A stretch of 64,000 nt of DNA, from assembly GCF_001548375.1 (NCBI RefSeq), contig NZ_AP017295.1, positions 3,320,501 to 3,384,500 on the forward strand. Direction: 5' to 3'. The notes beneath the pieces were generated by a model. It was not told where the DNA came from. It did not search any database and saw only the letters and a program-made list of their open reading frames with translations. A program made the translations under genes and the position numbers. This document shows, in pieces, positions 23,785 to 40,700 of the stretch; position 1 is the stretch's first letter; every line of letters begins with the position of its first letter. The stretch is from Nostoc sp. NIES-3756. Its GTDB lineage: Bacteria > Cyanobacteriota > Cyanobacteriia > Cyanobacteriales > Nostocaceae.

Positions 23785-24627
23785 TTAAATCGGCGTTAAC
23801 CAATAGCTAATTCCGCGAACAACTTTATTTCTTAACCCCAAAGTTGGGAGATTATCTACATTCACGCCCAGATAAGTCCAGTGTGGGACATCGTTTTCTA
23901 CCGTTTGAAACCAACCGTTATTATAAAGAGCTTGTCTTTGTTTTGCATTAGATACTCGTAAATCAATTGCTAATCCCCATAAGTGTTGTGATGCTCCCGG
24001 TGGTGCGACTACTCCAAGAATTGCTGTTTCTTTACCTTCTCGGACTTTATCTAAAGTATTTTGATTAGCATATTTTCGCCAGAATCTTAAATTGGTCGCA
24101 TAATTGCGTGTACAGTCACTAGCACCATAACCAGATTTAAGAGGAATATTTTGTTGAGAACGTGCTTTATTTAAAGCTGCTGCTGCTGATTGTTGTAAGT
24201 AACAGTTATTAGTCCCGGTGATTTTCTCCATCGCTAATGTACTTTGATATGCTTGTGTTTCCTGATCATTGTTGAAGACTACTGTAGGTGGAAATTTAAC
24301 TGCTGGTTCTGGATCTATAAAAGCTGCACCATAGGCACGGAGCAAGATATATTCATAACTTCCAGGTTGGGGAACTGTGGGAAAATGAGTGGCGATCGCA
24401 CTTAAAAAACGTTCTTGCTCAGTCTGGGGAATATTAGGGTTGGGCGTGGGTAAAATTGGCTGATTATATAGCTCAAGACAAGCTATAGAAGCGTTAATCT
24501 CACAAGCATTCAATGTTTGATTATTATGCAAGCTGCTAAAATGATTGATTGAGTTACTTGCAACTAATGTAAAAACTATTAAAGTGGTAATACAAATAAA
24601 TTTTATTCTTCTATTTAATCGCTTCAT
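23785..24627 (-). CDS. M15-family D-Ala-D-Ala carboxypeptidase-like protein
   Basis: A 280-residue exported protein with one N-terminal hydrophobic segment (signal peptide or anchor, about 9-27). The zinc site is complete: SQHLWGLAIDLRV (His and Asp of the SxHxxGxAxD motif) and PHWTYLG (last His). Four cysteines before the catalytic domain may form disulfides. It probably trims peptide stems of murein. The gene is alone, divergent from mnmG; a second, unrelated-looking M15 peptidase is at 44376-45176. Confidence 0.85.
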   Translation of the reverse strand: MKRLNRRIKFICITTLIVFTLVASNSINHFSSLHNNQTLNACEINASIACLELYNQPILPTPNPNIPQTEQERFLSAIATHFPTVPQPGSYEYILLRAYGAAFIDPEPAVKFPPTVVFNNDQETQAYQSTLAMEKITGTNNCYLQQSAAAALNKARSQQNIPLKSGYGASDCTRNYATNLRFWRKYANQNTLDKVREGKETAILGVVAPPGASQHLWGLAIDLRVSNAKQRQALYNNGWFQTVENDVPHWTYLGVNVDNLPTLGLRNKVVRGISYWLTPI

Positions 24628-26913: not shown

Positions 26914-27042
26914 GGGCTTTTGCATAAGCATGAGAAATCAACGATTTGGACAAAGGGTGCAAATCAGTTAACAGTGGAAATAACCTGACAACTGTCAACT
27001 GTCACACCCCTTCCAAAGTGCAAATTCTCATTGCTTAAGTCC
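26914..27042. repeat. Possible small inverted-repeat element
   Basis: The ends GGGCTTTTGCATAAGCATGA and, read on the other strand, GGACTTAAGCAATGAGAA are imperfect inverted repeats about 130 bp apart, like a small non-autonomous transposon. STRR-like ACTGTCA units sit inside. The rest of the 318-bp spacer 26798-27115 holds nothing I recognise. Confidence 0.35.
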
Positions 27043-27115
27043 TAACTCATTTAAAAAATCCTAATTTCCAGGTAGTAGGGGCAGCGTTGCCCCATCCTGG
27101 CTACTACCACCCAAA

Positions 27116-28501
27116 ATGCTTATGTTACAAAAAGTTAGCAACCATCTGATTATTCCAGAGGCTTCGGAAGACTTAATCGTCAATGAGCCTTGGTCAATAG
27201 AATTTTACGCTGATGGCTTGATGGATGAGCTTTTTGCTGATATTGATGAGATTCTGGATGTAAATTTGCCTCACCTCACCAACACCAGAGGTAGACAAAT
27301 ACGCCAAGCATCTTCAGTCAGCAGAACGAAAGAAACTGCCGCCAGCGATTGGTTCCTTAGTTCCAGCAACTCGTCCCATCAACAAACTTTAGAATATGAA
27401 AATCTGCGCACAGTAGATGTGCCGCAGATTGTTTTACCAAGCACCCTCAACCGGACTGTGCAGACAGTATCCCCCGTCATTAGTAAAGGGGGTAAGGTTG
27501 TAGTTGATAGTCAAACTGCCAAGCCACTAGCGAAAATCCATCAGCAATCTCAATCGGGTTTAGGCAAACTGCTGATTGTCGGGACAACAATTGGTGTAGC
27601 GATCGCAGGTGTACTATACATAGTGCAATCTGGACTGTTATTGCGCCTCACTTCCAGACTGACTCAATCAGATATTTATGTATCTCAATCCCAATTCTCT
27701 CCACAAGTAGATGTAGAGGGTGACTTAGCACAGTATATGCTGGGAGCGTTGGCAGTTATAGACAAATCCGATGTGAGGAATCAACAACCAGCGCGTGCAG
27801 AAATTGGCAACAGGGTAGCGTATAACCCTACAGCCTTGGCATTAAACAACACTCAGCCGCCTGTTGGTAATCTTCCAACGCCTCTCACAGCTAACAATAC
27901 ACTACCAGCGCCCAGCCGCCCCAACGTTGTTGAGCGGATTTATATCCCTGTGTATCAAGCGCCCTTGCCAATGCGCTATGCACCACCACCAATTGCAGGT
28001 ACTCCCTTACCGCCTATTGCAAATAATTTGGGGACAACCCAACCTAATGTAGTGAAAAATACTTTAAATCAAGTACAACCAACAAGTAAGCCTGCCAGCG
28101 TAAATATTTTAGCTTCGGCTGTGCGTTCTGAACTCAAACCTGTACCTGTACGCAATGCACCAATCAATGTCCAACCCGCACCTAAATTACTGCCTACATT
28201 GCCCGTTGTGCCATTTGGTGCAAGCCTACCAACACAGCCTAATACTGGTGGAGACGCTGTACCCATAGCATCATTAACAGTGAACGCTTCTACACCTGCT
28301 CCCAGCCACACCTTAGAAGGTTTATTAGAGTTAGGCAATAAATCTGTTGCCTTATTTCAAATTAATGGTGCTAGCCGCCGCGTCAGTATTGGTGAAACCA
28401 TCGGTACTAGCGGTTGGACTCTAGTTGAAGTAAATAACGGCGAAGCTATTGTGCGACGTAATGGTGAGGTGCGATCAATTTATGCAGGACAGAAGTTGTA
28501 A
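27116..28501 (+). CDS. Single-pass membrane protein with GspC/PilP-like C-terminal domain
   Basis: A 461-residue protein. An N-terminal acidic cytoplasmic part (about 1-145) is followed by a single transmembrane helix (about 150-172, LLIVGTTIGVAIAGVLYIV), a long Pro/Asn/Gln-rich periplasmic linker (about 190-395) and a compact C-terminal domain: LEGLLELGNKSVALFQINGA, then RRVSIGETIGTSGWTLVEVN and RRNGEVRSIYAGQKL. That end resembles the periplasmic HR/PilP domain of GspC-type proteins in type II secretion or type IV pilus systems. No secretion genes are adjacent. A role as envelope-spanning connector is inferred. Confidence 0.65.
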   Translation: MLMLQKVSNHLIIPEASEDLIVNEPWSIEFYADGLMDELFADIDEILDVNLPHLTNTRGRQIRQASSVSRTKETAASDWFLSSSNSSHQQTLEYENLRTVDVPQIVLPSTLNRTVQTVSPVISKGGKVVVDSQTAKPLAKIHQQSQSGLGKLLIVGTTIGVAIAGVLYIVQSGLLLRLTSRLTQSDIYVSQSQFSPQVDVEGDLAQYMLGALAVIDKSDVRNQQPARAEIGNRVAYNPTALALNNTQPPVGNLPTPLTANNTLPAPSRPNVVERIYIPVYQAPLPMRYAPPPIAGTPLPPIANNLGTTQPNVVKNTLNQVQPTSKPASVNILASAVRSELKPVPVRNAPINVQPAPKLLPTLPVVPFGASLPTQPNTGGDAVPIASLTVNASTPAPSHTLEGLLELGNKSVALFQINGASRRVSIGETIGTSGWTLVEVNNGEAIVRRNGEVRSIYAGQKL

Positions 28502-28587
28502 TGGTAGTGGTAGGCGGGTTGGGTAGCTTGCCCACAAAAATTAGGGACGGGGCAAGATGCACCATCCCACAAAATATTTATTGGAAA

Positions 28588-30150
28588 TTAACTTCTCACT
28601 GGTGGATTGATTTCAAAATGAATATGATGGTCGTGACCACTGGCAAAAGTACAAAGTTTTTCTCCTATTAGTTCGCTATCGTTGAAAAAAATTGCTCTTA
28701 CTAGCTTTTGTTTGCGGATTGATTTGAGAATGGCTCGTGCTGCATCTTGATCGTATTCAGGGCTTGTCCAGAAAATGCCACCAAATTTACCATCTTTTTT
28801 TGGCAGGAACACATCACACATCAAGCCAGTTTCATGTCCGTGATGGTCAGGAGTATCACCGCCATGTGGTAGGCTGACATCATTAATAGCAAAGTGAGCA
28901 GCATTGGGATGAGTATCCCGATAAGTGTTTTGATAATCTTGAGTAATTGCTTGAATGACATCAGCTAGCCAATGCGTACCAAAATCGTGTTTATCTTCGG
29001 TTTGTGCTAGTTCACCGTTGATAAAACCATTATCAGGGTCGCTTTTTGGCATTAATACCCATTTTGGTGCATTAGCTGCTTGCAACCATTGGTGAGTCAT
29101 TTCATCTATATCAACTCTGCCATCACCTTTAATAGTGCTGCTACCCGTAATAATTGATTGAAATAGCCTAATAGCTTCTTCTAAGCCTCTGTCTCTAGTG
29201 GGGGTGTTAGGGTCGCCTACCCATGTGTAACCGAGTTCTTGCAACCTTGCTTTTACAGCTTTGAGATCATTGGCTTTGTTGACTCCACCAACTCCCACAC
29301 TACCGGAGAGTGTAATGGCTTTAGCTCCTGGGTTAGTTGATGCTAGGTTGTTCTGTTGAGCAACGGGAACAACTTTAAACTTAATTTCTAAACTTTGGTC
29401 ATCAATGGCTATTAATATAGTGCGATCGCCTGCTTGATTAAAGACAAAGTTTAGTCGCCATTTGCCATCTTCACCCACTGTAATATCTTCACTAGGGAAG
29501 CGATCGTCAATCATTACCGATAAAACTCTGCCTTTGTCTGTTAAACGTGCTACACCTTCTACAATAAAAACTTGCCCTACACTAACTTCTTTTGGCGCAC
29601 GCATCAGTTGTAGTTGTTCTACTGAAGCAGAAGTGAATTCTCTACTAACACTAGTGAATAATTGCTGCGCTTCTGGTAATAAACTTACAACCTTGGTGAC
29701 ATAATTTGGATCAGAGGAATAACCTTTACTCTTGAGAAAGCCAATAAAGTTTTCTGGAGTATTAGTATGTTCTTCTAAACCTTTGTAGGGAGCGCGAGCT
29801 AAAAACTTCCAGTAGCCAATAAAAAAGCCATCAACATCTGGAAATTTACAAAATTCAACTTCTTCTAGTTCAGAAGGTACTTTAATTTTCAACGCTTCGG
29901 CAAAACCTTTCATATCAGGATCGCGCCATTTTAAGCCAGCAAAGTTGTTAGCTGTAGTCGCTAGTTTACTAGTAGCTCTAGCAGATTCTAGTAACCATTG
30001 TGCTAGGGTAACTTCTTTTAAAATTTGTCTATTTATCTCAGAAATTTTATCAGCATCAATGCCAACTTTTCCAAAGATTGTTTCTAAATCTGTAGACAGA
30101 TATTTATTTACTACATCATCTAATAATGCCATTTTGATTATCTCAAACAC
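28588..30150 (-). CDS. Modular cell-wall hydrolase: glucosaminidase, PG-binding and MepA-like endopeptidase domains
   Basis: A 520-residue protein without signal peptide. Residues 8-165 are a glucosaminidase (PF01832-type) domain with catalytic Glu in AQWLLESARATSKLA and NNFAGLKW. A beta-rich linker (about 180-270) follows, then a peptidoglycan-binding repeat (DLKAVKARLQELGYTWVGD, about 290-345). The C-terminal region 370-520 resembles penicillin-insensitive murein endopeptidase (M74): zinc motifs SLPHGGDTPDHHGHETGLMC (His and Asp) and GHDHHIHFEI. Both glycan and peptide bonds of murein could be cut. Two starts are possible (30150 or 30132). Third gene of a minus-strand group; lack of an export signal suggests release by lysis or by another route, as with endolysins. 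Confidence 0.82.
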   Translation of the reverse strand: MFEIIKMALLDDVVNKYLSTDLETIFGKVGIDADKISEINRQILKEVTLAQWLLESARATSKLATTANNFAGLKWRDPDMKGFAEALKIKVPSELEEVEFCKFPDVDGFFIGYWKFLARAPYKGLEEHTNTPENFIGFLKSKGYSSDPNYVTKVVSLLPEAQQLFTSVSREFTSASVEQLQLMRAPKEVSVGQVFIVEGVARLTDKGRVLSVMIDDRFPSEDITVGEDGKWRLNFVFNQAGDRTILIAIDDQSLEIKFKVVPVAQQNNLASTNPGAKAITLSGSVGVGGVNKANDLKAVKARLQELGYTWVGDPNTPTRDRGLEEAIRLFQSIITGSSTIKGDGRVDIDEMTHQWLQAANAPKWVLMPKSDPDNGFINGELAQTEDKHDFGTHWLADVIQAITQDYQNTYRDTHPNAAHFAINDVSLPHGGDTPDHHGHETGLMCDVFLPKKDGKFGGIFWTSPEYDQDAARAILKSIRKQKLVRAIFFNDSELIGEKLCTFASGHDHHIHFEINPPVRS

Positions 30151-30188
30151 ATAGGTTTATATCAATTCAAAATTAAGACTAACTGTAG

Positions 30189-30246
30189 GGTGCGTCAGTC
30201 CCAATAATTTCTTACACATCAAATAATTTTCCACATCTGACGCACC
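30189..30246. repeat. Inverted repeat GGTGCGTCAG/CTGACGCACC
   Basis: Ten-base perfect arms 38 bp apart between the two hydrolase genes, part of a wider imperfect palindrome bounded by GTAGG and CCTAC. A related half (GTAGGGTGTGTCAG) is at 40346-40359. It is a dispersed cyanobacterial repeat and could reduce readthrough between the genes. Confidence 0.75.
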
Positions 30247-30261
30247 TTTATTGTACCTACA

Positions 30262-31317
30262 TCATGTTTTCTCCTCAATTTTGGAGTGTCCAGCAAAAAC
30301 AAAATGCTCGTCGCGGTTGGCGAAACTCTTATCAGTCCACTTGACTAGATAATGCTGTTCTTCAAAACTGAAGTCTAAGATTGGGTACTTACCTGGATTA
30401 ATTTCAGCTAAGGTTTCTGGCTTTAACTTTGATGCTTGTTGTGTTGATGCTTTGAGAACAGTTGGTACTGTAATTTCCAAAATATAATCTTGATTTGTTG
30501 TTGCTGAAAGTTCCTTTATCTCACCAATTAATCCAACTTTGATAGCTTCAGCCATGTCCTCGGCATTAAAGCGATCCATGTCTATTTGAGAGTCACAAAA
30601 ACAGCACTCAATTAAGATAGCTGGCATTTGTGTATTTTTTAAAACAAAGAAACTTTTAGATTTAACACCTCTATCTCTAAAACCAAGCTGGACAATCTCT
30701 TTAAGCACAGATTGTGCTATACCCTTGGCAGAGTTACTAATTGCGTAGATTTCTGAGCCGTTGGCTTCTTTATTAGCTGCATTAAAGTGAATTGACACGA
30801 AAATATTCACATTATTACTATTTGCCTTATCAACCCTTTGCCTGAGAGAATCATCAACGTCACCAGCAGATGTAGGTGTGCAATTGACAACAGTATGACC
30901 CGCATCCTTAAGTTTTTGTATCAGTAATGTGCCAACAGCTTTGGTTAAACCATCTTCTTGTTTAACGCCTGATGCACCAGTATCAGGAGGACAATTGTGT
31001 CCGATCAAGGTAAAACTAGCATAAATTCCGGCGATCGCTACACAAACTAGAAAGAAAATTCCTATACCATGTGCTTCAACTTGGGGAAACATTGGCATTA
31101 AAAATAGTACCCAAATTAACCCAGCAGCTACAAACCCATTATATAATCCTTGATTACGAGCAAGAATAGCAGTCTGTTCCTCTAATGTGAAGTTATTCAT
31201 GAGTTTTTTTTGAACAAAATCTCCCTGCCAAAAAAACATTTCCACAGTTAAAAAGATAATGTGAATTAAGGCGATCGCACCTAAAAGTAATTTAAAAGTT
31301 ATTTCCATATTGTTCAC
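30262..31317 (-). CDS. DUF1304 membrane domain fused to N-acetylmuramoyl-L-alanine amidase
   Basis: A 351-residue protein of unusual architecture. Residues 1-107 are a DUF1304-type membrane domain (LLGAIALIHIIFLTVEMFFW, ARNQGLYNGFVAAGLIWVLF and VAIAGIYASFTL), about three helices; the usual last helix is missing. It runs directly into an Amidase_3 domain (about 108-270) with all zinc/catalytic residues: IGHNCPPDTGASG (His), EDGLTK (Glu), SIHFNA (His) and ILIECCFCD (Glu). A small C-terminal domain (about 280-345) resembles wall-targeting tails of other cyanobacterial amidases. The fusion would anchor a murein amidase in the inner membrane. It is 55 bp downstream of the SLATT-like gene. Confidence 0.82.
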   Translation of the reverse strand: MNNMEITFKLLLGAIALIHIIFLTVEMFFWQGDFVQKKLMNNFTLEEQTAILARNQGLYNGFVAAGLIWVLFLMPMFPQVEAHGIGIFFLVCVAIAGIYASFTLIGHNCPPDTGASGVKQEDGLTKAVGTLLIQKLKDAGHTVVNCTPTSAGDVDDSLRQRVDKANSNNVNIFVSIHFNAANKEANGSEIYAISNSAKGIAQSVLKEIVQLGFRDRGVKSKSFFVLKNTQMPAILIECCFCDSQIDMDRFNAEDMAEAIKVGLIGEIKELSATTNQDYILEITVPTVLKASTQQASKLKPETLAEINPGKYPILDFSFEEQHYLVKWTDKSFANRDEHFVFAGHSKIEEKT

Positions 31318-31372
31318 CTAAAATATTTAACTTTAATAACTTATGAAATAATTAAAAAAATCAAAAATATAA

Positions 31373-31777
31373 CTATTCAGTTTCAACTTTAGCCGCCTCG
31401 ATGCTCAGTTGCCGAAATTGAGATGAGATATTTTTTAATTCTTCTGGATTTTCTGTATACTGTGCATCGATAAGCAAATTATTAGCTTGAGCTTGGAGTA
31501 ATCGGTAACTTCCGGCTTTTTGTTTAACTGGAAAAGCATTACCAATGGCTTGAATAGCTACAATAACCGCTCCTAAAATGCTAGTACCGATTTTTTTATC
31601 TTCTTCGTTTATCTGATTCACAGAAGACAAAATAGTAATCATGAGCGTAAGGACAATTGTAGTAATTGTCAAACCCGCATCCCAACTACTATTAATTCGT
31701 CTCAATCTGGTCATGTGATGAGTGAATTGATGAATCTGCTTATACATATCTTCTTTTTTATTTTCAAAGTCTGGCAT
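31373..31777 (-). CDS. SLATT/DUF4231-like two-helix membrane protein
   Basis: A 134-residue protein: N-terminal amphipathic helix (QIHQFTHHMTRLRRINSSWD), two transmembrane helices (about 35-53, ITTIVLTLMITILSS; about 63-84, IGTSILGAVIVAIQAIGNAF), then a cytoplasmic helical hairpin (AGSYRLLQAQANNLLIDAQY). This layout is that of SLATT/DUF4231 proteins, predicted pore-forming effectors linked to nucleotide-signal and STAND conflict systems. First gene of the minus-strand group with the amidase and hydrolase, and divergent from the NB-ARC gene 158 bp away. Assignment is by layout, so moderate. Confidence 0.6.
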   Translation of the reverse strand: MPDFENKKEDMYKQIHQFTHHMTRLRRINSSWDAGLTITTIVLTLMITILSSVNQINEEDKKIGTSILGAVIVAIQAIGNAFPVKQKAGSYRLLQAQANNLLIDAQYTENPEELKNISSQFRQLSIEAAKVETE

Positions 31778-31934
31778 AGCGATCGCATCCCAACATACTT
31801 ACGTAATTGTCCTTCATTAAATACCAGACTGCATAACTTAGCAGTGAGTAAAAGTAACTATTTTTTGTAAATAGTTGTAAATATCTTTATCAACTAAATA
31901 CTGAAAAGACGCATAATAATTGCTTGAGCGGGTC

Positions 31935-34900
31935 ATGAAAGACGGTTGGTTGATGACGGGAAATGAGGCACTTAATTTAGTAAATGCAATTTTAGGCGCT
32001 AAATTAGGAATAAAGCTGAATGATGTAAAATCTGTAGTCTTTTTAGAAAGTTGGCAGGGAAATACTTATGAGGCAATTGCGGAGAAATTAGGTTATCAAA
32101 ACGATTATATTAAACAGGTCGGCTCCCAGTTGTGGCGATCGCTCTCTCAGGTTTTTGGTGAAGAAGTCACAAAAAAGAATATCCGCACGGTTTTACTTCA
32201 CTATCAGCAATTCCCAAGCCACACACAAGATTGGGGAGAAGCGCTTGATGTTGCGCAATTTTACGGTCGTCAAGTAGAATTGCAAACATTAACGACATGG
32301 ATTGAGTGCGATCGCTGTCGTTTTATTGGTCTTTTCGGATTGGGTGGAATTGGCAAAAGTAGTCTATCGGTAAAATTGGCGCAAAAATTAGAGTTCCAGT
32401 TTACCCACATAATTTGGCGTAGTTTAGGGCAAGCATTAACTTTGGATGCCTTACTGTCCGAAATCCTGCCAATTTTAGCTGGGTCAGAAGTTACTATAGA
32501 TATTTCCATTCATGCTTTGATGAAACAGTTGCAGCAAAAGCGCTGTCTGTTAGTTTTAGATAACGTAGAGTCTATATTGCAACCTGGAAACCGAGCAGGG
32601 CAATATCAATTAGAATTTGAACCATACCAACAGCTATTTGAGCGCATATGTGATGAACGCCATCAAAGTTGTTTGATAGTTACAGGAAGAGAAAAACCAG
32701 GCTCGATAGCGGTACGCGAAGGGAAAAATTTACCTGTGCGATCGCTTGTTGTGAGTGGAATTACACAAGCAGCAGGTCAGCAAATCCTCATAGACAAAGG
32801 TTTGGCAGCAACACCAGCCCAGTATCAGACCTTAGTAAACTACTTTGGGGGAAATCCTCTAGCACTGAAAATTGCTGCCACCACCATTCAAGATATATTT
32901 TGTAGTGATATACAGGCATTTTTAGCCCAAGGCAATACTGTTTTTAGCAATCTCTGGGATTTACTTAAACAACAGTTTGAGCGTTTATCACCTCTACAAA
33001 AGCAGATTATGTACTGGCTAGCCATTAATCGGGAAGAGGTGACAGCAGCTAGGTTGAAAGCACAAATATTACCATCAGTAACGCAACAAGAAATATTAGA
33101 AGCCTTAGAATCCCTCAAGGGTTTGTGTCTGATAGAAACGGGGTCAACCGGATTAACACAGCAACCCGTGATTATGGAGTATGTAACACAACAATTTATC
33201 CAGACTCTAGAAGGGGAAATTATCACAGGTGAACTAGATTTATTTCACAGCCACGCCATCATCGAAGCCGTAACACCAGACTATATCCGCGAAGCCCAAA
33301 CTCAACTCATCTTACACCCACTGTTAGAACAGTTGTTAACTCACTTCGGCACAAAAAGCCAACTTGAACATTACCTGAGCAAAATCTTAAGGGAATTACG
33401 AAAGCATTCAGTATGGCAAACTGGTTACACAACGGGTAATTTATTGAATTTATTTAGTTATTTGCAAACAGACTTACAGGGGTATGATTTTTCTGGACTG
33501 ACTATTCGTCAAGCTTACTTAGCCAACACTAATTTACATCAGACTAATTTTATTGATGCTCAATTTATTGGGACTGTTTTTGCCGAAACTTTTGGTGGTG
33601 TAGTCAGCGTAGCTTTTAGCCCAGATGGGAAGTATTTTGCTACTAGCGATACTAAAGGAGAAATTCAAATTTGGGATGCAGATACAGCAAAACAACTATT
33701 ACGTTGTCGAGGACATCAACATTGGACTTGGGCTGTAGCTTTTAGTCCTGATGGCATGTATTTAGCCAGTGCTAGCGATGATTATTTAGTGAAATTATGG
33801 GATGTGGAAACTGGGCGATGTTTGCAAACTTATACAGGGCATACATACTCAGTTAATGATGTAGCTTTTAGTCCTCATGGCATTTTAGCAAGTTGCGGAC
33901 AAGATGCCACTATTCGATTATGGGCGATCGCAGATGAACAAATATATGCCTCTGTATTAGTCGGTCATCAAGGGCGAGTTTGGGCAATTGCCTTTCATCC
34001 TGATGGTAAAACTCTCGCCAGTTGTGGGGAAGATTGTACAATTCGCTTGTGGGATATTACTACAGGTAAAAACTTTTGTGTTTGGCAAGCACATGAGGGC
34101 TGGGTACGTTCTCTAGCATTCAGTCCAGATGGTAAGTTACTTGCTAGCAGTAGCTACGACAACACCATCAAACTTTGGGATAGCAAAACCCAACAATGCT
34201 TACAAATTTTACATGGTCATCGACAAGCAATAACTGCGATCGCCTTTAGTCCCCACTCTCAGCAGTTAGCAAGTAGCAGCTATGACCGCACTATCAAACT
34301 CTGGGATATCAACACAGGCAATTGTCAAAAAACATTTCTTGGTCATAATAGCCGCGTTTGGGCAGTTACTTTTCATCCTCAAGAGCAAAAATTAGTCAGT
34401 GCTGGTGACGATCATGCTACCAAAATCTGGAACATTCACACAGGACGCTGTACAAAAACCCTCAAAGGACATACAAACAGCGTCTTATCTCTAGCTTTGA
34501 GTCCCGATGGTAATTACCTAGCCAGTGGTCACGAAGACCAAACCATCAAGCTTTGGCACATCAAAAGCGGTACTATCATACAAACATTACGAGAGCATAC
34601 TAACCGTGTTTGGTCGGTGGCGTTTCATCCCCACAGTCACCAACCCCTACTCGCTAGTGGTAGCGCCGACTACACCATCAAATTGTGGGATTGGCAGTTA
34701 GGTATTTGTTTACAAACCTTACACGGACATAATAGTTGGGTGTGGACAGTAGTTTTTAGTCCAGATGGAAGAAAATTAGCCAGTAGCAGCTATGACCAAA
34801 CTGTGAAACTTTGGGATATAAGCACAGGTCAATGTTTACAAACCTTCTTAGGACATACTAGTTCTGTTGTTTCTGTCGCCTTTAGTCCCGATGGTAAGCT

Positions 34901-35516
34901 ATTAGCCAGCAGTGAATTTGACGGCATCATTAAACTGTGGAACATTGAGACAGGAGAATGTTGCCAAAGCCTGACAGGACACACAAATAGCATTTGGTCA
35001 GTTAGCTTTAGCCCTGATGGGCAATGGCTTTTAAGTAGCAGTTTTGACCACACACTCAAACTTTGGTCAGTCTCCACAGGTGAATGTCTACGAACCTATA
35101 CCGGACACCAAGCCCCAATTTTAAAATCTCAATTCAGTCCAAATGGTCAATTGATTGTCAGTGGTAGTTTAGATCGCAGCCTGAAAATTTGGGATACGCT
35201 CACAGGAGAGTGCTATTACACGTTAACTGGTCACTCAGACCTAATTTACACTCTCCTAGTGGCTTTTATTGCCGTTGGAGATGGGGCTGTTAAACTAACT
35301 GCCTTTAGTGGTAGCTTAGACGAAACTATTAAAGTTTGGAATTTGCAAACTTACCAATGTGAGCAAACTTGGCGGGTATCTCGTCCTTATGAAGGGATGG
35401 AATTAAGCAAAAATCAAGGATTAACAGAAGCGCAATTAGCCACTTTGCAAGCCTTAGGTGCTGTAATTCATTGCGAATCAGGCAACCTAAAGATTGACAA
35501 TATCATGTCCGCTTAA
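31935..35516 (+). CDS. STAND protein: N-terminal HTH, NB-ARC ATPase and 14 WD40 repeats
   Basis: A 1,194-residue protein. About 5-90 is the helical domain MTGNEALNLVNAILG, ESWQGNTYEAIAEKLGY of the vMAP-associated HTH type. The NB-ARC domain (about 105-430) has Walker A GLGGIGKSSLS and Walker B KRCLLVLDNVES. Pentapeptide-like LRQ/NLHQTNF follows, then WD40 repeats, about 555-1160; I count 14 blades (IKLWD endings), enough for two seven-bladed propellers. Blades are strikingly alike (ASSSYDNTIKLWD, ASSSYDRTIKLWD, ASSSYDQTVKLWD), suggesting recent repeat exchange. Such proteins sense ligands and oligomerise. I start at the ATG at 31935; a TTG at 31920 is also in frame. Confidence 0.92.
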   Translation: MKDGWLMTGNEALNLVNAILGAKLGIKLNDVKSVVFLESWQGNTYEAIAEKLGYQNDYIKQVGSQLWRSLSQVFGEEVTKKNIRTVLLHYQQFPSHTQDWGEALDVAQFYGRQVELQTLTTWIECDRCRFIGLFGLGGIGKSSLSVKLAQKLEFQFTHIIWRSLGQALTLDALLSEILPILAGSEVTIDISIHALMKQLQQKRCLLVLDNVESILQPGNRAGQYQLEFEPYQQLFERICDERHQSCLIVTGREKPGSIAVREGKNLPVRSLVVSGITQAAGQQILIDKGLAATPAQYQTLVNYFGGNPLALKIAATTIQDIFCSDIQAFLAQGNTVFSNLWDLLKQQFERLSPLQKQIMYWLAINREEVTAARLKAQILPSVTQQEILEALESLKGLCLIETGSTGLTQQPVIMEYVTQQFIQTLEGEIITGELDLFHSHAIIEAVTPDYIREAQTQLILHPLLEQLLTHFGTKSQLEHYLSKILRELRKHSVWQTGYTTGNLLNLFSYLQTDLQGYDFSGLTIRQAYLANTNLHQTNFIDAQFIGTVFAETFGGVVSVAFSPDGKYFATSDTKGEIQIWDADTAKQLLRCRGHQHWTWAVAFSPDGMYLASASDDYLVKLWDVETGRCLQTYTGHTYSVNDVAFSPHGILASCGQDATIRLWAIADEQIYASVLVGHQGRVWAIAFHPDGKTLASCGEDCTIRLWDITTGKNFCVWQAHEGWVRSLAFSPDGKLLASSSYDNTIKLWDSKTQQCLQILHGHRQAITAIAFSPHSQQLASSSYDRTIKLWDINTGNCQKTFLGHNSRVWAVTFHPQEQKLVSAGDDHATKIWNIHTGRCTKTLKGHTNSVLSLALSPDGNYLASGHEDQTIKLWHIKSGTIIQTLREHTNRVWSVAFHPHSHQPLLASGSADYTIKLWDWQLGICLQTLHGHNSWVWTVVFSPDGRKLASSSYDQTVKLWDISTGQCLQTFLGHTSSVVSVAFSPDGKLLASSEFDGIIKLWNIETGECCQSLTGHTNSIWSVSFSPDGQWLLSSSFDHTLKLWSVSTGECLRTYTGHQAPILKSQFSPNGQLIVSGSLDRSLKIWDTLTGECYYTLTGHSDLIYTLLVAFIAVGDGAVKLTAFSGSLDETIKVWNLQTYQCEQTWRVSRPYEGMELSKNQGLTEAQLATLQALGAVIHCESGNLKIDNIMSA

Positions 35517-35589
35517 ACACTTATCATAAGTAGAACGACTCGAAAAAAACAAACTACATTAACTAATGTAAAAAGACTAGGATTCAGTT

Positions 35590-35617
35590 CGTAGTAAGGA
35601 CTAAAGTTCTTACTACG
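35590..35617 (+). terminator. Hairpin CGTAGTAAG/CTTACTACG after the STAND gene
   Basis: Nine-base perfect stem in a spacer where T-rich DNA follows. A common Nostoc palindrome that would end the STAND transcript, 74 bp beyond its stop. Confidence 0.6.
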
Positions 35618-35680
35618 AGCCTTTAATTATTTAACCTATTCTACTTATAAGTAGGTGAACATAATTATTTAGAAGACGCA

Positions 35681-35738
35681 TTTCGACTACGCTCAATGCT
35701 AGCTAACTTTATCCGAAGAGGGTTGAGCGCAGTCGAAA
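35681..35738. repeat. Inverted repeat TTTCGACTACGCTCAA/TTGAGCGCAGTCGAAA
   Basis: Sixteen-base arms with one mismatch and a 26-bp gap. Another dispersed spacer palindrome. The spacer 35517-35876 contains only these palindromes and no gene. Confidence 0.75.
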
Positions 35739-35876
35739 CCCGGCGATCTCAAGTTAGGTTTAATTTAGTCCTTCTACTTATAGTGAGGGTTGGTAATTGC
35801 TAATTGGTAATGGGAAAAAACAATTACCTATGATTATCCCCCACGGTATCATCAACATCTAAACAGATGTGCTATG

Positions 35877-38063
35877 TCAAGTTTTTTCTATGGAATGGTC
35901 TTTATGGTTTGGCATATTCCATGTTTTCTGCCATAGTTCTTTGATGTTTTGAATGGTACTTTCGTTTTTGATTACTAGCCAACCATTTTTAATAGCTTTC
36001 TTCTCTTTATCGGTTAACTTCCATGATAAAGGCGGTCGATACTTACCATTGCAATAAAATTCACTAATCTCCAAATTTTTATCTTTTAAATCATCAGGAA
36101 AGAAAATAGGAAAATAGCGGATATCAACTTGACCTTGCCATTTTTTCGCTAAGAGATCAGCTTCCTGAGCATTGCGAGATGCCAAAACTGGATCTCGTAC
36201 TTTGAACATTGTTAATAATGGGCCGATAGTTGCCATAAACCAGCCTCCACTTCCATCTACGTTTTCAGTTGAAGGAGATTGAGGAAAAGGATTGATTTGT
36301 AATATGAGGACTCGTTTGATATTGGAATTATTTTTAGCTTGGAGTAATTGGTCTAGCCATTCTGCTGCTGTGACAAAACCAGAGTTATCAAAATAGCCTC
36401 CATCCGCAACGTGATAGTTCTTACCGGGAATATTTATATTGCTGCGACTGATAGGAGAAACATAGGGGAAAGTTGCTGATAATCTGGCAGCCGTGACCAC
36501 ACTCATATCATAATTATAGGCTCCATAAAGAGTATTAAAATCAACATATTTTTTCCCTTTTTGCTCATCATCTTTAACGAAAGTCATCGGTGTAATCAAA
36601 AATCGCCAACCATTTTCAACTAAAGTAGCATTGAAAACAGGAATGGGAATTTTACCCTCAAAAATCTGTTTTCGCCAAGTGCCTAAGGTTGTCAATTGTT
36701 TTGGATTTTTCATTTCCCCTTGCCAATCTGTTTCAACTGCTGCACCACGGTCAAATTTTGAGCTAATGAGGAAAGGAAAACCGATAAATCGCCATAAATC
36801 TAAATAAGCCAGACCCCAACCAACAGCATCTAAACTATCAGTGGTAGCAGCATTAAAACTATCTCTAACCTTTCCTTCCAAGATGGTTGATGTGGCATCT
36901 TCCAAACAACCATCTTGATTAAAATGATCTAGATAATACATTGCTCCGACCGAACCACCAGACACAGAACTAATCAAGCCAATTGCTTGAGTAAATTCTT
37001 TTCCTAATAACCTTTGTAAACCAGCTAATACTTCAACTGTCCATCCTGCTGCTTGAATCCCACCACCACTTGCACAAACAACTACTAAGGTTTTTTCTCC
37101 CTGTTGATGTTGGAGGCGTTTATCAAGAAACTTTTGAAAATCACCTGCATCAGCGTCAATATTATTTGTGTTTTCACTAGACTGAAATTTATTAAGTTGG
37201 AAAAAATGATTGACATTAAATCCCCAATAATTTAATCCAGAGAACACAAGAAATAAAACTAATACAGGTATGCGGAAGTAATCAAAATAAAATGTAACTC
37301 CACCGTAGGCAATGACCATGATGGCAGTTATCAATAGGACATACAACAAAGCAGGTGCTTCCGGTCGATTTGGTTCTGGTTTGGGATTATAGATTAAACC
37401 AATGGTAATATAAACAACTAAGCCAATGAGAAAATAAGCGATCGCAGTTAGATGTCCTGTAGTTAATTCACCAGTTTGAGGATTGATATAGCCAGCTTTA
37501 TCATATTCTCTAAACAGTGGCAGGATGTCAGCAACCAACTGCTTTAAAAAAGTATTGTAACTTAACCAGTGTCTCAGTAAGCTCACAAGTAATAATAGTC
37601 CAATACCTAAGCCTCCACCAACCAATGTTCCCCACTTTATTTCTGGCTGATTCAACTTCTCTTTAGATAAATTAACTGCCGAGATACAAACATTTAAACT
37701 CAAGACAATAGCTATTCCGTATTGCCAAATTTCGGGAATTGTTATTAATGGTGGTATAGAAAAGCGGGCTGGTGCGTTAGCTAAAATAATTGCAGATACC
37801 AAACTGACTGAAGCTCCTGCACCGATTGCACTCACAATGATAGCGACTAGCTGCCATTTGTTGCGGAGTACAAATAGATTCTTCAACATTGGTGCAAGAT
37901 AACCTTTAGCAAGTGTAGGCAGGAGTACAAGAAATAAGCCTACTAATATCGGTAGTCGTAGAAAGAAAAGATATTTCCACCCAATATCAGGAACAAATCG
38001 CCATATTAATGCTATAACTGCCAGTATTACTAGTGGCGATAAAAACTTAATAACTTTGTTCAT
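35877..38063 (-). CDS. Membrane patatin-like phospholipase
   Basis: A 728-residue protein. The first 290 residues contain about seven hydrophobic helices; then a soluble patatin domain (about 325-640). The oxyanion motif is CASGGGIQAAGW, the nucleophile elbow is ISSVSGGSVGAMYYL and the Asp dyad partner is VADGGYFDNSGF. Patatins hydrolyse acyl chains of membrane lipids with a Ser-Asp dyad. In bacteria, patatins also appear as effectors of defence systems (e.g. CBASS), but no cyclase is adjacent. The seven-helix attachment is an architecture less common than soluble patatins. Confidence 0.85.
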   Translation of the reverse strand: MNKVIKFLSPLVILAVIALIWRFVPDIGWKYLFFLRLPILVGLFLVLLPTLAKGYLAPMLKNLFVLRNKWQLVAIIVSAIGAGASVSLVSAIILANAPARFSIPPLITIPEIWQYGIAIVLSLNVCISAVNLSKEKLNQPEIKWGTLVGGGLGIGLLLLVSLLRHWLSYNTFLKQLVADILPLFREYDKAGYINPQTGELTTGHLTAIAYFLIGLVVYITIGLIYNPKPEPNRPEAPALLYVLLITAIMVIAYGGVTFYFDYFRIPVLVLFLVFSGLNYWGFNVNHFFQLNKFQSSENTNNIDADAGDFQKFLDKRLQHQQGEKTLVVVCASGGGIQAAGWTVEVLAGLQRLLGKEFTQAIGLISSVSGGSVGAMYYLDHFNQDGCLEDATSTILEGKVRDSFNAATTDSLDAVGWGLAYLDLWRFIGFPFLISSKFDRGAAVETDWQGEMKNPKQLTTLGTWRKQIFEGKIPIPVFNATLVENGWRFLITPMTFVKDDEQKGKKYVDFNTLYGAYNYDMSVVTAARLSATFPYVSPISRSNINIPGKNYHVADGGYFDNSGFVTAAEWLDQLLQAKNNSNIKRVLILQINPFPQSPSTENVDGSGGWFMATIGPLLTMFKVRDPVLASRNAQEADLLAKKWQGQVDIRYFPIFFPDDLKDKNLEISEFYCNGKYRPPLSWKLTDKEKKAIKNGWLVIKNESTIQNIKELWQKTWNMPNHKDHSIEKT

Positions 38064-38306
38064 AGTAAGTCTTTAATAGAACATTGTCTAATTTCAATAT
38101 GTAGCGTAAATTTACTCACTTAGTAGTGAGAAAAAGTCACTAATTAATATAAAATTATGTAAACATCAATATCAATTTCAGCTAATTACTGACTAGCCCC
38201 TACCTTGCAGGAACATGCCCCTGAGTGTCAACAGAAGGGTAATTGTTTTCTGCCATTACCAACCACTACGATATGATCAATCTGGAAACAGATGTGATGT
38301 ATCAAC

Positions 38307-40187
38307 CTAGCTATTGAATATTGGGAATGTAAACCAAAATGTCGCGCCTTTTTGGGAATCCCTTTTAACACCAATATCGCCACCGTGAGCAGTGATGATT
38401 TGCTTGCATAGATATAAACCTAAGCCTAGACTTAATGAATTGCGGTTACTACCACCCCGGAAGTAAAGGTCAAATAAGCGATCGCTCTGCTGTTGACTAA
38501 TGCCACTACCATTATCCTTGACGGTACAGTAAATCATTTCGCCTTGGGGGACGGCGTTAATAGTTATCTCTAAACCAGGGGGATTGTGTTTGATGGCATT
38601 GACAATTAAGTTAGAAAATACACGCCATACTTGCGTAGGATCGGCATTTACTAATGGTATATCTGCGGGGACTAAATTTGTGAGTGTGGTTTGATTATCT
38701 ACCAACATAGGCTCTAAATCTGCGATCGCCCCTTCTACCACCCCTTGTAATTGTACAGGCTGACATTGCACACTCAAACCTTGCACTTCACCAATATGGG
38801 CTTCTAATAAAGAGTTAATCAGATTTAACTGGCGATCGCTACTTTGCACCATCCTCTCTAAAATAGAGCGAGGTACAGGAATTGAGGACTGGTTACTATT
38901 CACTGGCGCTATCTTCTCCCCATCTCCCCCCACTTCCTCATCTCCCTCATCTCCCCCATCTTTCACTCTCCCTACTTCCTCATTCAGTAAATTCCTCAAC
39001 ACCATCACAGTCCCCAACACCGGGTTACGTAAATCATGGGACACGGCGTGGAAAAATACTCTAAGGGCTTCCTGGGCTTGTTTGCGTTGGGTGATATCTT
39101 CAACTAAACCTTCGTAGTAAAGTAATTTCCCTTGTTCATCACGGACAGCGTAGGCTTTTTCGGAAATCCAGACAATGCTACCATCTTGCCGATAAATCTG
39201 CGACTCAAATTCTGGTGCTAGTCCAGACTCTTCCATCAACCGGACAAACTCGGCGCGGCGCTTCGGGTCAACATATAATTGATGTTCAATATCTGTAAAC
39301 TTTGCGGTTACTTCTTCGGGAGAAGTGTAACCATATATACGAGCTAAAGCTGGGTTAGCTGTAATGTAACGTCCATCAGGGCTACTTTGGAAGATACCTT
39401 CAATGGCATTTTCAAAGATGCTACGGTATTTCGCTTCCGCCAACCTTAACTTATCATTAGCTGATTCTAATTCTTTACGGGCATAAAACTCTGAACGTTG
39501 CAGGCGATCGTACAGATAAACACCAAGGTCACATATAACACAAAACCAGAAGATGTAAAGAATAAACGAGACATTGTATATTTCTGGATGTTCAGGTAAA
39601 GGAGTACTCAGCCTCAGAACTGTATTCACACCAAAATAATAAACTAAAACCCCTAGCTGGCAGACTAAATGGAGACTCCAGCGCACAGGCATAAACGTAG
39701 CTTGGCTCAAAAATAATAATGACCAGCCTGCGGTATCGGGTAGGGCAAAACCTTTAAGGGTGGCAAATAATTGTGATGCTAAACTCAGCGACCAAGATGA
39801 GCCTAAAAATAGTATCCCTGGATGACGATGACCAAAGCTAGTTTTACGCAGGGCAAAACAAACCAGTAAACTCAACAACATTGCTGCATTGATGATTAAC
39901 CTTTGAGTTCTCATCACTTGGGGGAGTAAATGAAACTCTTGGAGAGGAAAAAACAGGTCGTAGACATCCCTAAGAGTAAACGACAATAGGCAGCCTAGTA
40001 CTAGCCATAACCACAGATGTAACCTCTGCCATAAAAAACGATGCCTAATTACCTGCCACTCTTGTTGTTGAGAGTGTGGGTAAACAGCTTTAATTTCATC
40101 CGTACTTGGTGCAGAAATAGCTTCTCTCCACCGCCGTTGCAATTTTCTCAACAAGGTAGCCATTAGAGTTTTACCAACCTCACCCAT
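38307..40187 (-). CDS. Membrane PAS-domain sensor histidine kinase
   Basis: A 626-residue kinase: six hydrophobic helices (about 48-235), a PAS/PAC domain (KYRSIFENAIEGIFQSSPDG, about 255-375), HisKA (FHAVSHDLRNPV, phospho-His around 384) and HATPase (VIVNAIKHNPPGL-type N box, DNGSGIS, LGLGLYLCKQ). Between the two HisKA helices there is an acidic low-complexity insert, KDGGDEGDEEVGGDGEK (about 415-440), encoded by a tandem repeat (38914-38980). No cognate regulator is adjacent. Start at 40187 or the ATG at 40163. Confidence 0.9.
   Translation of the reverse strand: MGEVGKTLMATLLRKLQRRWREAISAPSTDEIKAVYPHSQQQEWQVIRHRFLWQRLHLWLWLVLGCLLSFTLRDVYDLFFPLQEFHLLPQVMRTQRLIINAAMLLSLLVCFALRKTSFGHRHPGILFLGSSWSLSLASQLFATLKGFALPDTAGWSLLFLSQATFMPVRWSLHLVCQLGVLVYYFGVNTVLRLSTPLPEHPEIYNVSFILYIFWFCVICDLGVYLYDRLQRSEFYARKELESANDKLRLAEAKYRSIFENAIEGIFQSSPDGRYITANPALARIYGYTSPEEVTAKFTDIEHQLYVDPKRRAEFVRLMEESGLAPEFESQIYRQDGSIVWISEKAYAVRDEQGKLLYYEGLVEDITQRKQAQEALRVFFHAVSHDLRNPVLGTVMVLRNLLNEEVGRVKDGGDEGDEEVGGDGEKIAPVNSNQSSIPVPRSILERMVQSSDRQLNLINSLLEAHIGEVQGLSVQCQPVQLQGVVEGAIADLEPMLVDNQTTLTNLVPADIPLVNADPTQVWRVFSNLIVNAIKHNPPGLEITINAVPQGEMIYCTVKDNGSGISQQQSDRLFDLYFRGGSNRNSLSLGLGLYLCKQIITAHGGDIGVKRDSQKGATFWFTFPIFNS
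38914..38980. repeat. In-frame tandem repeat within the histidine kinase
   Basis: On the coding strand GGGGGAGATGAGGGAGATGA-type units encode GGDEGDEEVGGDG in the loop of the dimerisation domain. The same unit occurs in the non-coding spacer near 10302-10320, so it looks like a mobile or slipping repeat that entered a coding frame. Confidence 0.7.
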
Positions 40188-40700
40188 ACTCTTGTAGGTT
40201 TTTCGTGCTTCCAGACAGTAATAATACCAATTGGTAATGCGTAATGCGTAATGGGCTACGCCCCGCTTCGCTAACGTAATTCGTAATTAACAAACTTAAG
40301 TAGGTGGATATCAATAAGGAACTTCCAGATAAAAAATATTTAACATGTAGGGTGTGTCAGTTCTATTTATTTTTTGGTGTTCCTTAAATGCGATCGCACC
40401 AGATTTTTTGTGCGGAAAACAATTAATACTTGATACGAATTGCTCAAATTCATTCGTTTTTATATTTATTGTTTGCAAAGTTAATTTCACTAATAAACAT
40501 TCGATAAGTTGATATTTGCTGCCCGTTTTATTGTCATGAAAAACTAAAGATTTAGATTTTTATTTTAATCACCAAAGCTTTTAATTACTAAGTTTCAGAG
40601 GAAAAATTAAAAAATACAAAAATATTTTGTTGTTTTTTGTAAAACACAAAGCAATTTAATAGATGAACTCATAGTAATTATTGACTAGGAGGGTAAAATC
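40188..40700. other. Spacer with AT-rich DNA and dispersed repeats
   Basis: A GTAATGCGTAATGGGCTACG repeat with CCGCTTCGCTAACGTAATTC lies near 40239-40285, and a GTAGGGTGTGTCAG half-palindrome at 40346-40359. From 40420 on the DNA is AT-rich and must hold the protease promoter. No gene seen before 40701. Confidence 0.5.

Follow-up and report, generated by a model that had tools for sequence, protein, structure and literature searches.

What connects a group of peptidoglycan hydrolase and membrane protein genes of the cyanobacterium Nostoc sp. NIES-3756 to the STAND ATPase gene from which it diverges? Within the 64,000-nucleotide stretch analysed here (the window; contig NZ_AP017295.1, positions 3,320,501 to 3,384,500; all coordinates below are window positions), the initial annotation had read this group as a STAND-controlled self-lysis module. 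An open-reading-frame check bore out the coordinates of its four genes and their divergent arrangement, a minus-strand trio facing a plus-strand STAND gene. The operon's first gene (31373-31777) encodes a SLATT-like protein of 134 aa; it is followed on the minus strand by a DUF1304-Amidase_3 fusion gene (30262-31317) and by the gene of a predicted glucosaminidase/peptidase, called HYD520 here (28588-30150). The STAND gene occupies 31920-35516, and its likely start, by comparison with its relatives, is ATG 31953. Between the SLATT and STAND genes lie 142 bp by the listed coordinates (31778-31919) and 175 bp if ATG 31953 is the STAND start, in place of the 158 bp first reported. The host genome measures 7.0 Mb, and the closest relatives of both SLATT and the amidase are found in Nostoc-like cyanobacteria. 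An RNA element at the locus was rejected, since no Rfam family scored over threshold at 27000-40300. PADLOC returned no match for the three operon proteins and, for STAND, two matches only, HEAT-ARM_XIII within the WD40 region and VakA (E 0.03).

Endolysin-like hydrolases and a candidate pore protein

HYD520 combines a glucosaminidase domain (E 7e-17), an Ig-like/PG-binding region with a weak, sub-threshold PG_binding_1 match, and an M74/LAS-like peptidase region. The Peptidase_M74 match is also weak and sub-threshold (E 0.005, 16.8 vs 25 bits); HYD520 carries HxxxxxxD...HxH residues, which we take to be the LAS peptidase motif. The protein, which probably starts at ATG 30132, has no export signal and matches the PHROG endolysin family phrog_3513 (E 1e-11).

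In the second gene, likely to start at ATG 31308, a DUF1304 membrane domain (about 31006-31308; E 5e-21) precedes an Amidase_3 domain (about 30262-31005; E 7e-33), which matches the PHROG endolysin family phrog_435 (E 1e-54). The nearest amidase (P0082, 99%) is unfused and 253 aa long; the unfused amidases of relatives measure about 250-263 aa and begin with MKFGIDIGHNC or a close variant. In Fischerella muscicola PCC 7414 and Nostoc UCD121 (loci L078 and L081) a separate gene adjoining SLATT encodes DUF1304, and coverage of the fusion protein stays at or below 70% in each of the 120 listed matches, out of 952. For these reasons the window amidase seems to have arisen by the joining of two adjacent cassette genes, and in the alignment it lacks the end of DUF1304 and the first amidase residues; the product may be an active enzyme or an assembly error. 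The inner-membrane-anchored amidase first proposed is thus not a general feature: among those 120 of 952 matches the fusion is confined to this genome, the amidases of relatives being unfused.

Endolysin similarity and the lack of an export signal extend to the enzymes encoded at the related loci described below. A hydropathy scan found no hydrophobic N-terminal segment in any of the 11 cargo enzymes checked, the window amidase having one solely through its DUF1304 fusion, and an endolysin family was the best PHROG match for eight of the nine cargo enzymes scanned (the exception is C39).

The SLATT-like protein has two hydrophobic segments in a hydropathy scan and scores below the curated cut-offs of NCBIfam SLATT_1 (E 2e-7, 31 vs 41 bits) and Pfam SLATT_5 (16 vs 29.5 bits). 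Because both cut-offs are missed we call it SLATT-like, and we regard it as a candidate pore. Comparison with solved folds gave no useful PDB match. A prophage or plasmid origin was rejected, as no match to SLATT was found in phages, plasmids or viral contigs; PHROG gave none either.

A STAND protein with an HTH-like N-terminal domain

The STAND protein was rightly annotated as an ATPase with propeller repeats: its NB-ARC match (34.8 bits) exceeds the cut-off of 23.5, and 14 WD40 stretches follow. The N-terminal domain (about 31953-32210) is HTH-like, its model resembling GerE/NarL and sigma-4 domains; no death-fold protein appears in the fold list for this model, an absence that in such a list is no proof. 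Similar STAND N-terminal halves occur in 87 of 99 relatives. An HMM of the HTH domain matches STAND, HTH-only and HTH-Uma2 proteins and does not match the hydrolases. HTH-only or HTH-Uma2 proteins replace STAND in many loci, so that STAND is one of several box-associated proteins. In several Microcoleus-like genomes STAND measures about 430-450 aa and lacks WD40; there STAND and its flanking genes recur and the box cargo changes.

A 40-bp box in front of the divergent genes

Three overlapping 9-mers recur in seven of nine divergent intergenic regions, against a maximum of four in 200 shuffles. Aligned, they define a 40-bp box, GGTGAGAAAAAGTGAC-N4-TTTTGTAAA-N5-GTAAAT, made of direct repeats in 10-bp steps. 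Inverted-repeat operators were rejected, dyads being scattered and none being common to a set of loci. A weight matrix built from the box finds two sites scoring at least 8 in the window. The first (31843-31882, plus strand), with a leave-one-out score of 34.1, is separated by 65 bp from the SLATT start on one side and by 70 bp from STAND ATG 31953 on the other. The second (38125-38164, plus strand), which was outside the training set and scores 32.1, lies 6 kb from the STAND-operon box and 61 bp before a minus-strand gene (35877-38063). The product of this gene is a patatin-like phospholipase, the N-terminal third of which contains about seven hydrophobic segments. Both boxes thus have the same orientation and geometry relative to the minus-strand gene, which makes the patatin gene a predicted member of the same regulon. 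The background maximum of the matrix was 16.8 in 384 kb of Markov sequence.

A pattern search of 378 genomes of the order gave 83 sites in 44 genomes with at most three mismatches, compared with three sites for the reversed-pattern control. With a pattern taken from other genomes, the host's own 7.0-Mb genome yielded the two window sites only (one and two mismatches), and a separate pattern derived from the two window sites gave an agreeing result. Where a box precedes an HTH gene it is oriented towards that gene in all 37 cases; ten of these boxes come from the first loci, several of which were in training, and only orientation was used from this set because some distances were measured from a later aligned domain. 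Close HTH domains (at least 131 bits) are present in 29 of 44 box-positive genomes and in none of 36 box-negative genomes hand-picked from 334, with a threshold that was set after the gap had been seen (highest box-negative match, 122.4 bits). Boxes scoring at least 17 are absent from 40 control STAND loci (491 kb in total), and also from G474, from G479 and from G069, which has a STAND without this HTH. The HTH gene has become separated from the amidase operon in G010 and G012, and each of the two keeps a 15-bp core of the box with one mismatch, which is weaker evidence because one-mismatch 15-mers occur elsewhere in those genomes. These comparisons show that the operator-like 40-bp box co-occurs with a close HTH clade.

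Lysis-type cargo follows the box and the HTH gene

We fetched 40 site regions of our own pick, mostly around better sites; one (L267) was dropped for a score below 28, leaving 39 loci, and the set does not include the sites of G084, G094, G589, G212, G751, G595 and G606, nor certain second sites. An HTH gene lies within 3 kb of the box in 23 of the 39 loci. A peptidoglycan-hydrolase or PG-binding, C39 or patatin gene is present in 19 of these 23, compared with three of the 16 loci without HTH; 13 of the 39 boxes have neither an HTH nor a lysis-type neighbour. These counts use a panel widened during the survey with domains from L252, L263, L269 and L278, PG-binding being counted as a hydrolase mark; with the original panel, fixed before the survey, 15 of the 23 HTH loci are positive, or 16 with a marginal PG-binding match in L280. 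The widened hydrolase panel found nothing in 40 control loci chosen by STAND similarity alone (20 with alignments beginning near the N-terminus and 20 with alignments beginning at residue 92 or beyond; contig ends truncate a few of the loci), and a generic linkage of STAND and hydrolase genes was rejected accordingly. An earlier count of hydrolases near nearer STANDs (3 of 11) was discarded, since G096 had been chosen with knowledge of a hydrolase-domain match nearby and the 11 were not in strict top rank.

The cargo enzymes differ between loci. They include Amidase_2, Amidase_3, M74, M15, GH24, GH25, Muramidase and VanY domains and a 583-aa Glucosaminidase-Amidase_2-LysM-M23 protein. Patatin genes sit inside box-led hydrolase operons in G529 and G650 (68% and 57% identical to that of the window). 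G059 encodes a 78-aa protein, preceded by a box of its own, that matches the phage holin family phrog_9752 (E 8e-8), and holin-like relatives in the box loci of G744 and G807 bring the total to three loci; in several other box loci no SLATT or holin-like gene was seen. In Nostoc UCD121 (G524) the SLATT-STAND locus is free of hydrolases, and a box elsewhere in the genome is accompanied by amidase, HYD520 and HTH genes.

Conservation of the SLATT neighbourhood

A protein of Nostoc sp. NIES-2111 shares 97% identity with the window's SLATT. SLATT is rare: a single-protein query found it in three of 99 relatives and two of 386 genomes of the phylum, and an alignment query in 12 of 217 family genomes and 23 of 388 order genomes. 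Close relatives occur in ten genomes, seven of which have a hydrolase beside SLATT, compared with one of 19 distant-SLATT loci (Fisher 5e-4, kinship ignored), or two of 19 if a PG-binding gene 2 kb away is included (p 0.002, kinship likewise ignored). This gene, in the distant-SLATT locus of G805, is the only one of its kind there, about 2 kb off on the opposite strand. An HTH domain or HTH-STAND gene diverges from SLATT in seven of the ten genomes as well (the SLATT position in G460 was taken from a separate search). The type of hydrolase is exchanged from one locus to another: Amidase_3 and HYD520 in the window, G480 (as remnants), G069 and G711, a GH24 lysozyme in G059, Muramidase and C39 in G758, and PG-binding and CHAP in G460. 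In G069 the STAND is of a different, AAA_35 type, and in G474 and G479 SLATT has neither partner. Distant SLATT relatives were rejected as further systems, since in 18 of 19 loci SLATT has neither the STAND nor a panel hydrolase next to it. Only G625 departs from this: there SLATT accompanies a GH24 lysozyme, Lipase_3 and a NACHT protein, in divergent arrangement with a 67% identical STAND.

In four genomes of the host's own genus (G006, G009, G010 and G012) HYD520 and amidase genes adjoin the same T2SSC-like gene, and SLATT and STAND are absent. The divergent gene carries the HTH domain of STAND; in G006 and G009 this domain is joined to a Uma2 nuclease. The G012 product, outside the domain scan, is 307 aa long, and the gene of G010 is cut by the edge of the fetched region. 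SLATT is an optional part of the system, present in only some of the loci. Leaderless endolysin-type hydrolases nonetheless recur in different genera alongside a divergent STAND and a 2TM protein, with the enzyme type exchanged, so that the initial reading withstands the check for a conserved neighbourhood.

A probable STAND-controlled lysis regulon

We regard a STAND-controlled lysis regulon, with STAND as a MalT-like activator, as a fairly probable reading of the locus. The shared box, together with the holin-like gene at three loci, argues for one lysis regulon. The HTH-like N-terminus and the operator-like box point to a STAND that probably acts through transcription, and not by triggering the effectors directly. 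STAND would remain inactive as long as no signal, perhaps from a phage, reaches its WD40 propellers; on receiving one it would bind ATP, oligomerise and bind the 40-bp box through its HTH-like domain. The bound protein would switch on the divergent operon of SLATT, amidase and glucosaminidase/peptidase, the patatin gene that follows the second box and, probably, the STAND gene itself. Since they have no export signal, the hydrolases would wait in the cytoplasm, and since the cargo is of endolysin type and has no N-terminal hydrophobic segment, a pore would be needed for it to reach the cell's own wall. The SLATT 2TM protein, or the holin-like protein in other genomes, may open the inner membrane; the enzymes would then reach the wall, the phospholipase would damage membranes and the cell would lyse.

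The self-lysis module of the initial annotation is partly supported, by the conserved neighbourhood, the common box and the endolysin-type enzymes; SLATT proved optional, the amidase normally unanchored and STAND often replaced. Its comparison to a holin-endolysin cassette is borne out for the leaderless enzymes; for the membrane protein that would release them, the SLATT-like 2TM protein of the window and the holin-like genes of three loci are candidates.

The strongest alternative, in our view unlikely, is that the regulon is a weapon, making antibacterial enzymes (lysins, LodA, peroxidases, lipases) against competitors or predators, with limited lysis as the release step. LodA and a vanadium haloperoxidase lie behind the box in L282 and a DyP peroxidase in L284, and the lack of an export segment in all 11 cargo enzymes checked is in keeping with such release. 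We noticed no secretion genes in the neighbourhoods shown, however, and the regulon holds a holin-like protein and a patatin; self-lysis and the killing of others are, moreover, not exclusive.

We think it improbable that the HTH and STAND proteins instead control cytoplasmic or non-classically exported peptidoglycan enzymes in development (hormogonia, akinetes, septal pores) or under wall stress. In several Nostocaceae genomes HTH-only or HTH-Uma2 genes do accompany the amidase and HYD520, SLATT and STAND being absent, but leaderless, interchangeable endolysin-like enzymes accompanied by holin-like, SLATT and patatin genes are untypical of a developmental pathway. Slightly less probable still is an antagonist, in which STAND releases repression or HTH-only proteins silence a toxic operon in toxin-antitoxin fashion. 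HTH-only genes of about 91-155 aa do share the hydrolases' box in six genomes (G261, G432, G524, G536, G711 and G733), but direct-repeat arrays fit cooperative activators, and MalT and other STAND regulators whose DNA-binding domains have a known action are activators. Accidental adjacency of two common gene types, for which the 11 NB-ARC matches in this genome and the wide spread of similar STAND N-terminal halves could be cited, is highly implausible given the repeated conservation, the box and the panel-negative neighbourhoods of all 40 other STANDs.

Relation to known systems

The regulon that we favour, one of STAND-controlled lysis, has several partial counterparts. MalT-type STAND activators combine an NTPase switch with an HTH and bind asymmetric direct-repeat boxes. 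The NTPase switch and the direct-repeat boxes recur here, with the HTH-like domain as the candidate DNA-binding part; this domain is N-terminal and sigma-4/GerE-like, however, the sensor is WD40, and the targets are of lysis type instead of serving sugar use. Phage holin-endolysin cassettes likewise pair leaderless endolysin-family hydrolases with small membrane proteins, one of ours being holin-like, but here the genes are host-chromosomal and under a STAND/HTH regulator, and SLATT has no PHROG or phage match.

The nearest precedent, within the part of the account available to us, is the set of EAD1-linked lysozyme and peptidoglycan-peptidase effectors of Kaur et al. (2020; PMC7159879). That work on EAD/STAND/SLATT conflict systems of multicellular bacteria predicts SLATT to be a pore effector and proposes that EAD1-linked lysozyme and papain-like peptidoglycan peptidase domains attack peptidoglycan; STAND NTPases, SLATT and peptidoglycan-directed enzymes are thus common to both (PMC7159879, as far as available). 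Effectors there share the adaptor domain of the core protein, whereas the hydrolases scanned here lack it and are linked by a DNA box; the HTH-Uma2 proteins would fit the adaptor-sharing principle (PMC7159879, same portions). Those portions describe neither a 40-bp box nor a divergent leaderless lysin operon, and the main text of the follow-up (PMC8195603) does not mention peptidoglycan, lysozyme, holin, SLATT or patatin. The Alp system of Pseudomonas aeruginosa (AlpR/AlpA/alpBCDE) shares a programmed-lysis output, and the second AlpA target locus carries a peptidoglycan amidase gene; AlpA is an antiterminator induced after DNA damage and not a STAND, the box, gene families and phylum differ, and exchangeable cargo was not seen in the portions consulted (PMC7969949). 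Cyanobacterial sigma-r4-type HTH domains joined to NB-ARC, WD40 or AAA_35 have been noted and, in the sections available, are listed as accessory-domain sigma factors, with no targets, box or link to lysis (PMC11119718).

Beyond these, our literature search found no description of a STAND-controlled endolysin regulon or of the 40-bp box, in line with the initial claim of novelty; the sources were judged largely by title and abstract, with preprints and most subscription literature outside the scope. To our knowledge, bacterial NB-ARC/WD40 proteins have no defined output, and they are very common in filamentous cyanobacteria. It is possible, and we advance it tentatively, that the locus represents a new class of programmed-lysis immunity, in which an activator of NLR architecture with its own operator governs swappable domesticated phage lysins, holin-like pores and phospholipases, partly at an exchange hotspot, and the cell bursts on sensing a phage or other invader. 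If the regulon is real, the output of these NLR-like proteins could be read from its operator box and effectors, a single box, reporter and mutant would suffice for a direct test of programmed cell death in cyanobacteria, and phage lysis genes would have been domesticated as an exchangeable, host-controlled self-destruct set.

Relatives of the operon and its neighbouring genes

The 336-residue protein P0248, a copy of HYD520 (the glucosaminidase and M74/LAS-like peptidase protein encoded on the minus strand at 28588-30150 of the window), is 100% identical to it over the matched part. Since P0248 is without the glucosaminidase domain, the HYD520 gene seems broken in the genome that encodes it. 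The DUF1304-amidase fusion (window 30262-31317) was absent from the relatives among the matches listed, and represents either two cassette genes that were joined naturally or an assembly error. In two same-genus genomes, the amidase and HYD520 genes are divergent from genes that fuse the HTH domain of the STAND protein to a Uma2 nuclease (L048:10405-11340 and L049:6737-7633). A further gene, 4 kb away from the operon (window 23785-24627), encodes a VanY-type D-alanyl-D-alanine carboxypeptidase whose N-terminus is hydrophobic; this gene is kept next to mnmG in genomes of the same genus.

At the SLATT-STAND locus of Nostoc UCD121, a gene for a 290-residue lipoprotein-like product overlaps one for a 149-residue helical protein with a hydrophobic end (L081:6481-7759). 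Searches of Pfam and PHROG returned zero matches for this pair, which, speculatively, is reminiscent of spanin pairs.

Genes behind the box

A weak copy of the box, the 40-bp direct-repeat element (score 23.1; L064:2849, genome G073), was located 55 bp upstream of an alpha/beta-hydrolase-like gene, a fold judged by eye. The nearby STAND protein is 61% identical, and the hydrolase cassette is absent there. At L282 and L284, box-linked genes adjoining STAND genes encode a LodA L-lysine oxidase, a vanadium haloperoxidase and a DyP peroxidase; lysis genes and hydrogen-peroxide chemistry stand side by side in this cargo. In Microcoleus-like genomes, variant boxes of the GGCAAGAAAAAGTGACACGATTTTGTAAACTTACGTAAAT type precede non-lysis genes (L248 in G758, L251, L253, L255, L279, L281 and L285), among them a GmrSD restriction protein gene, as well as Uma2-like and toxin-antitoxin-like genes assigned by eye. 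The box regulon of these genomes may be wider, covering defence.
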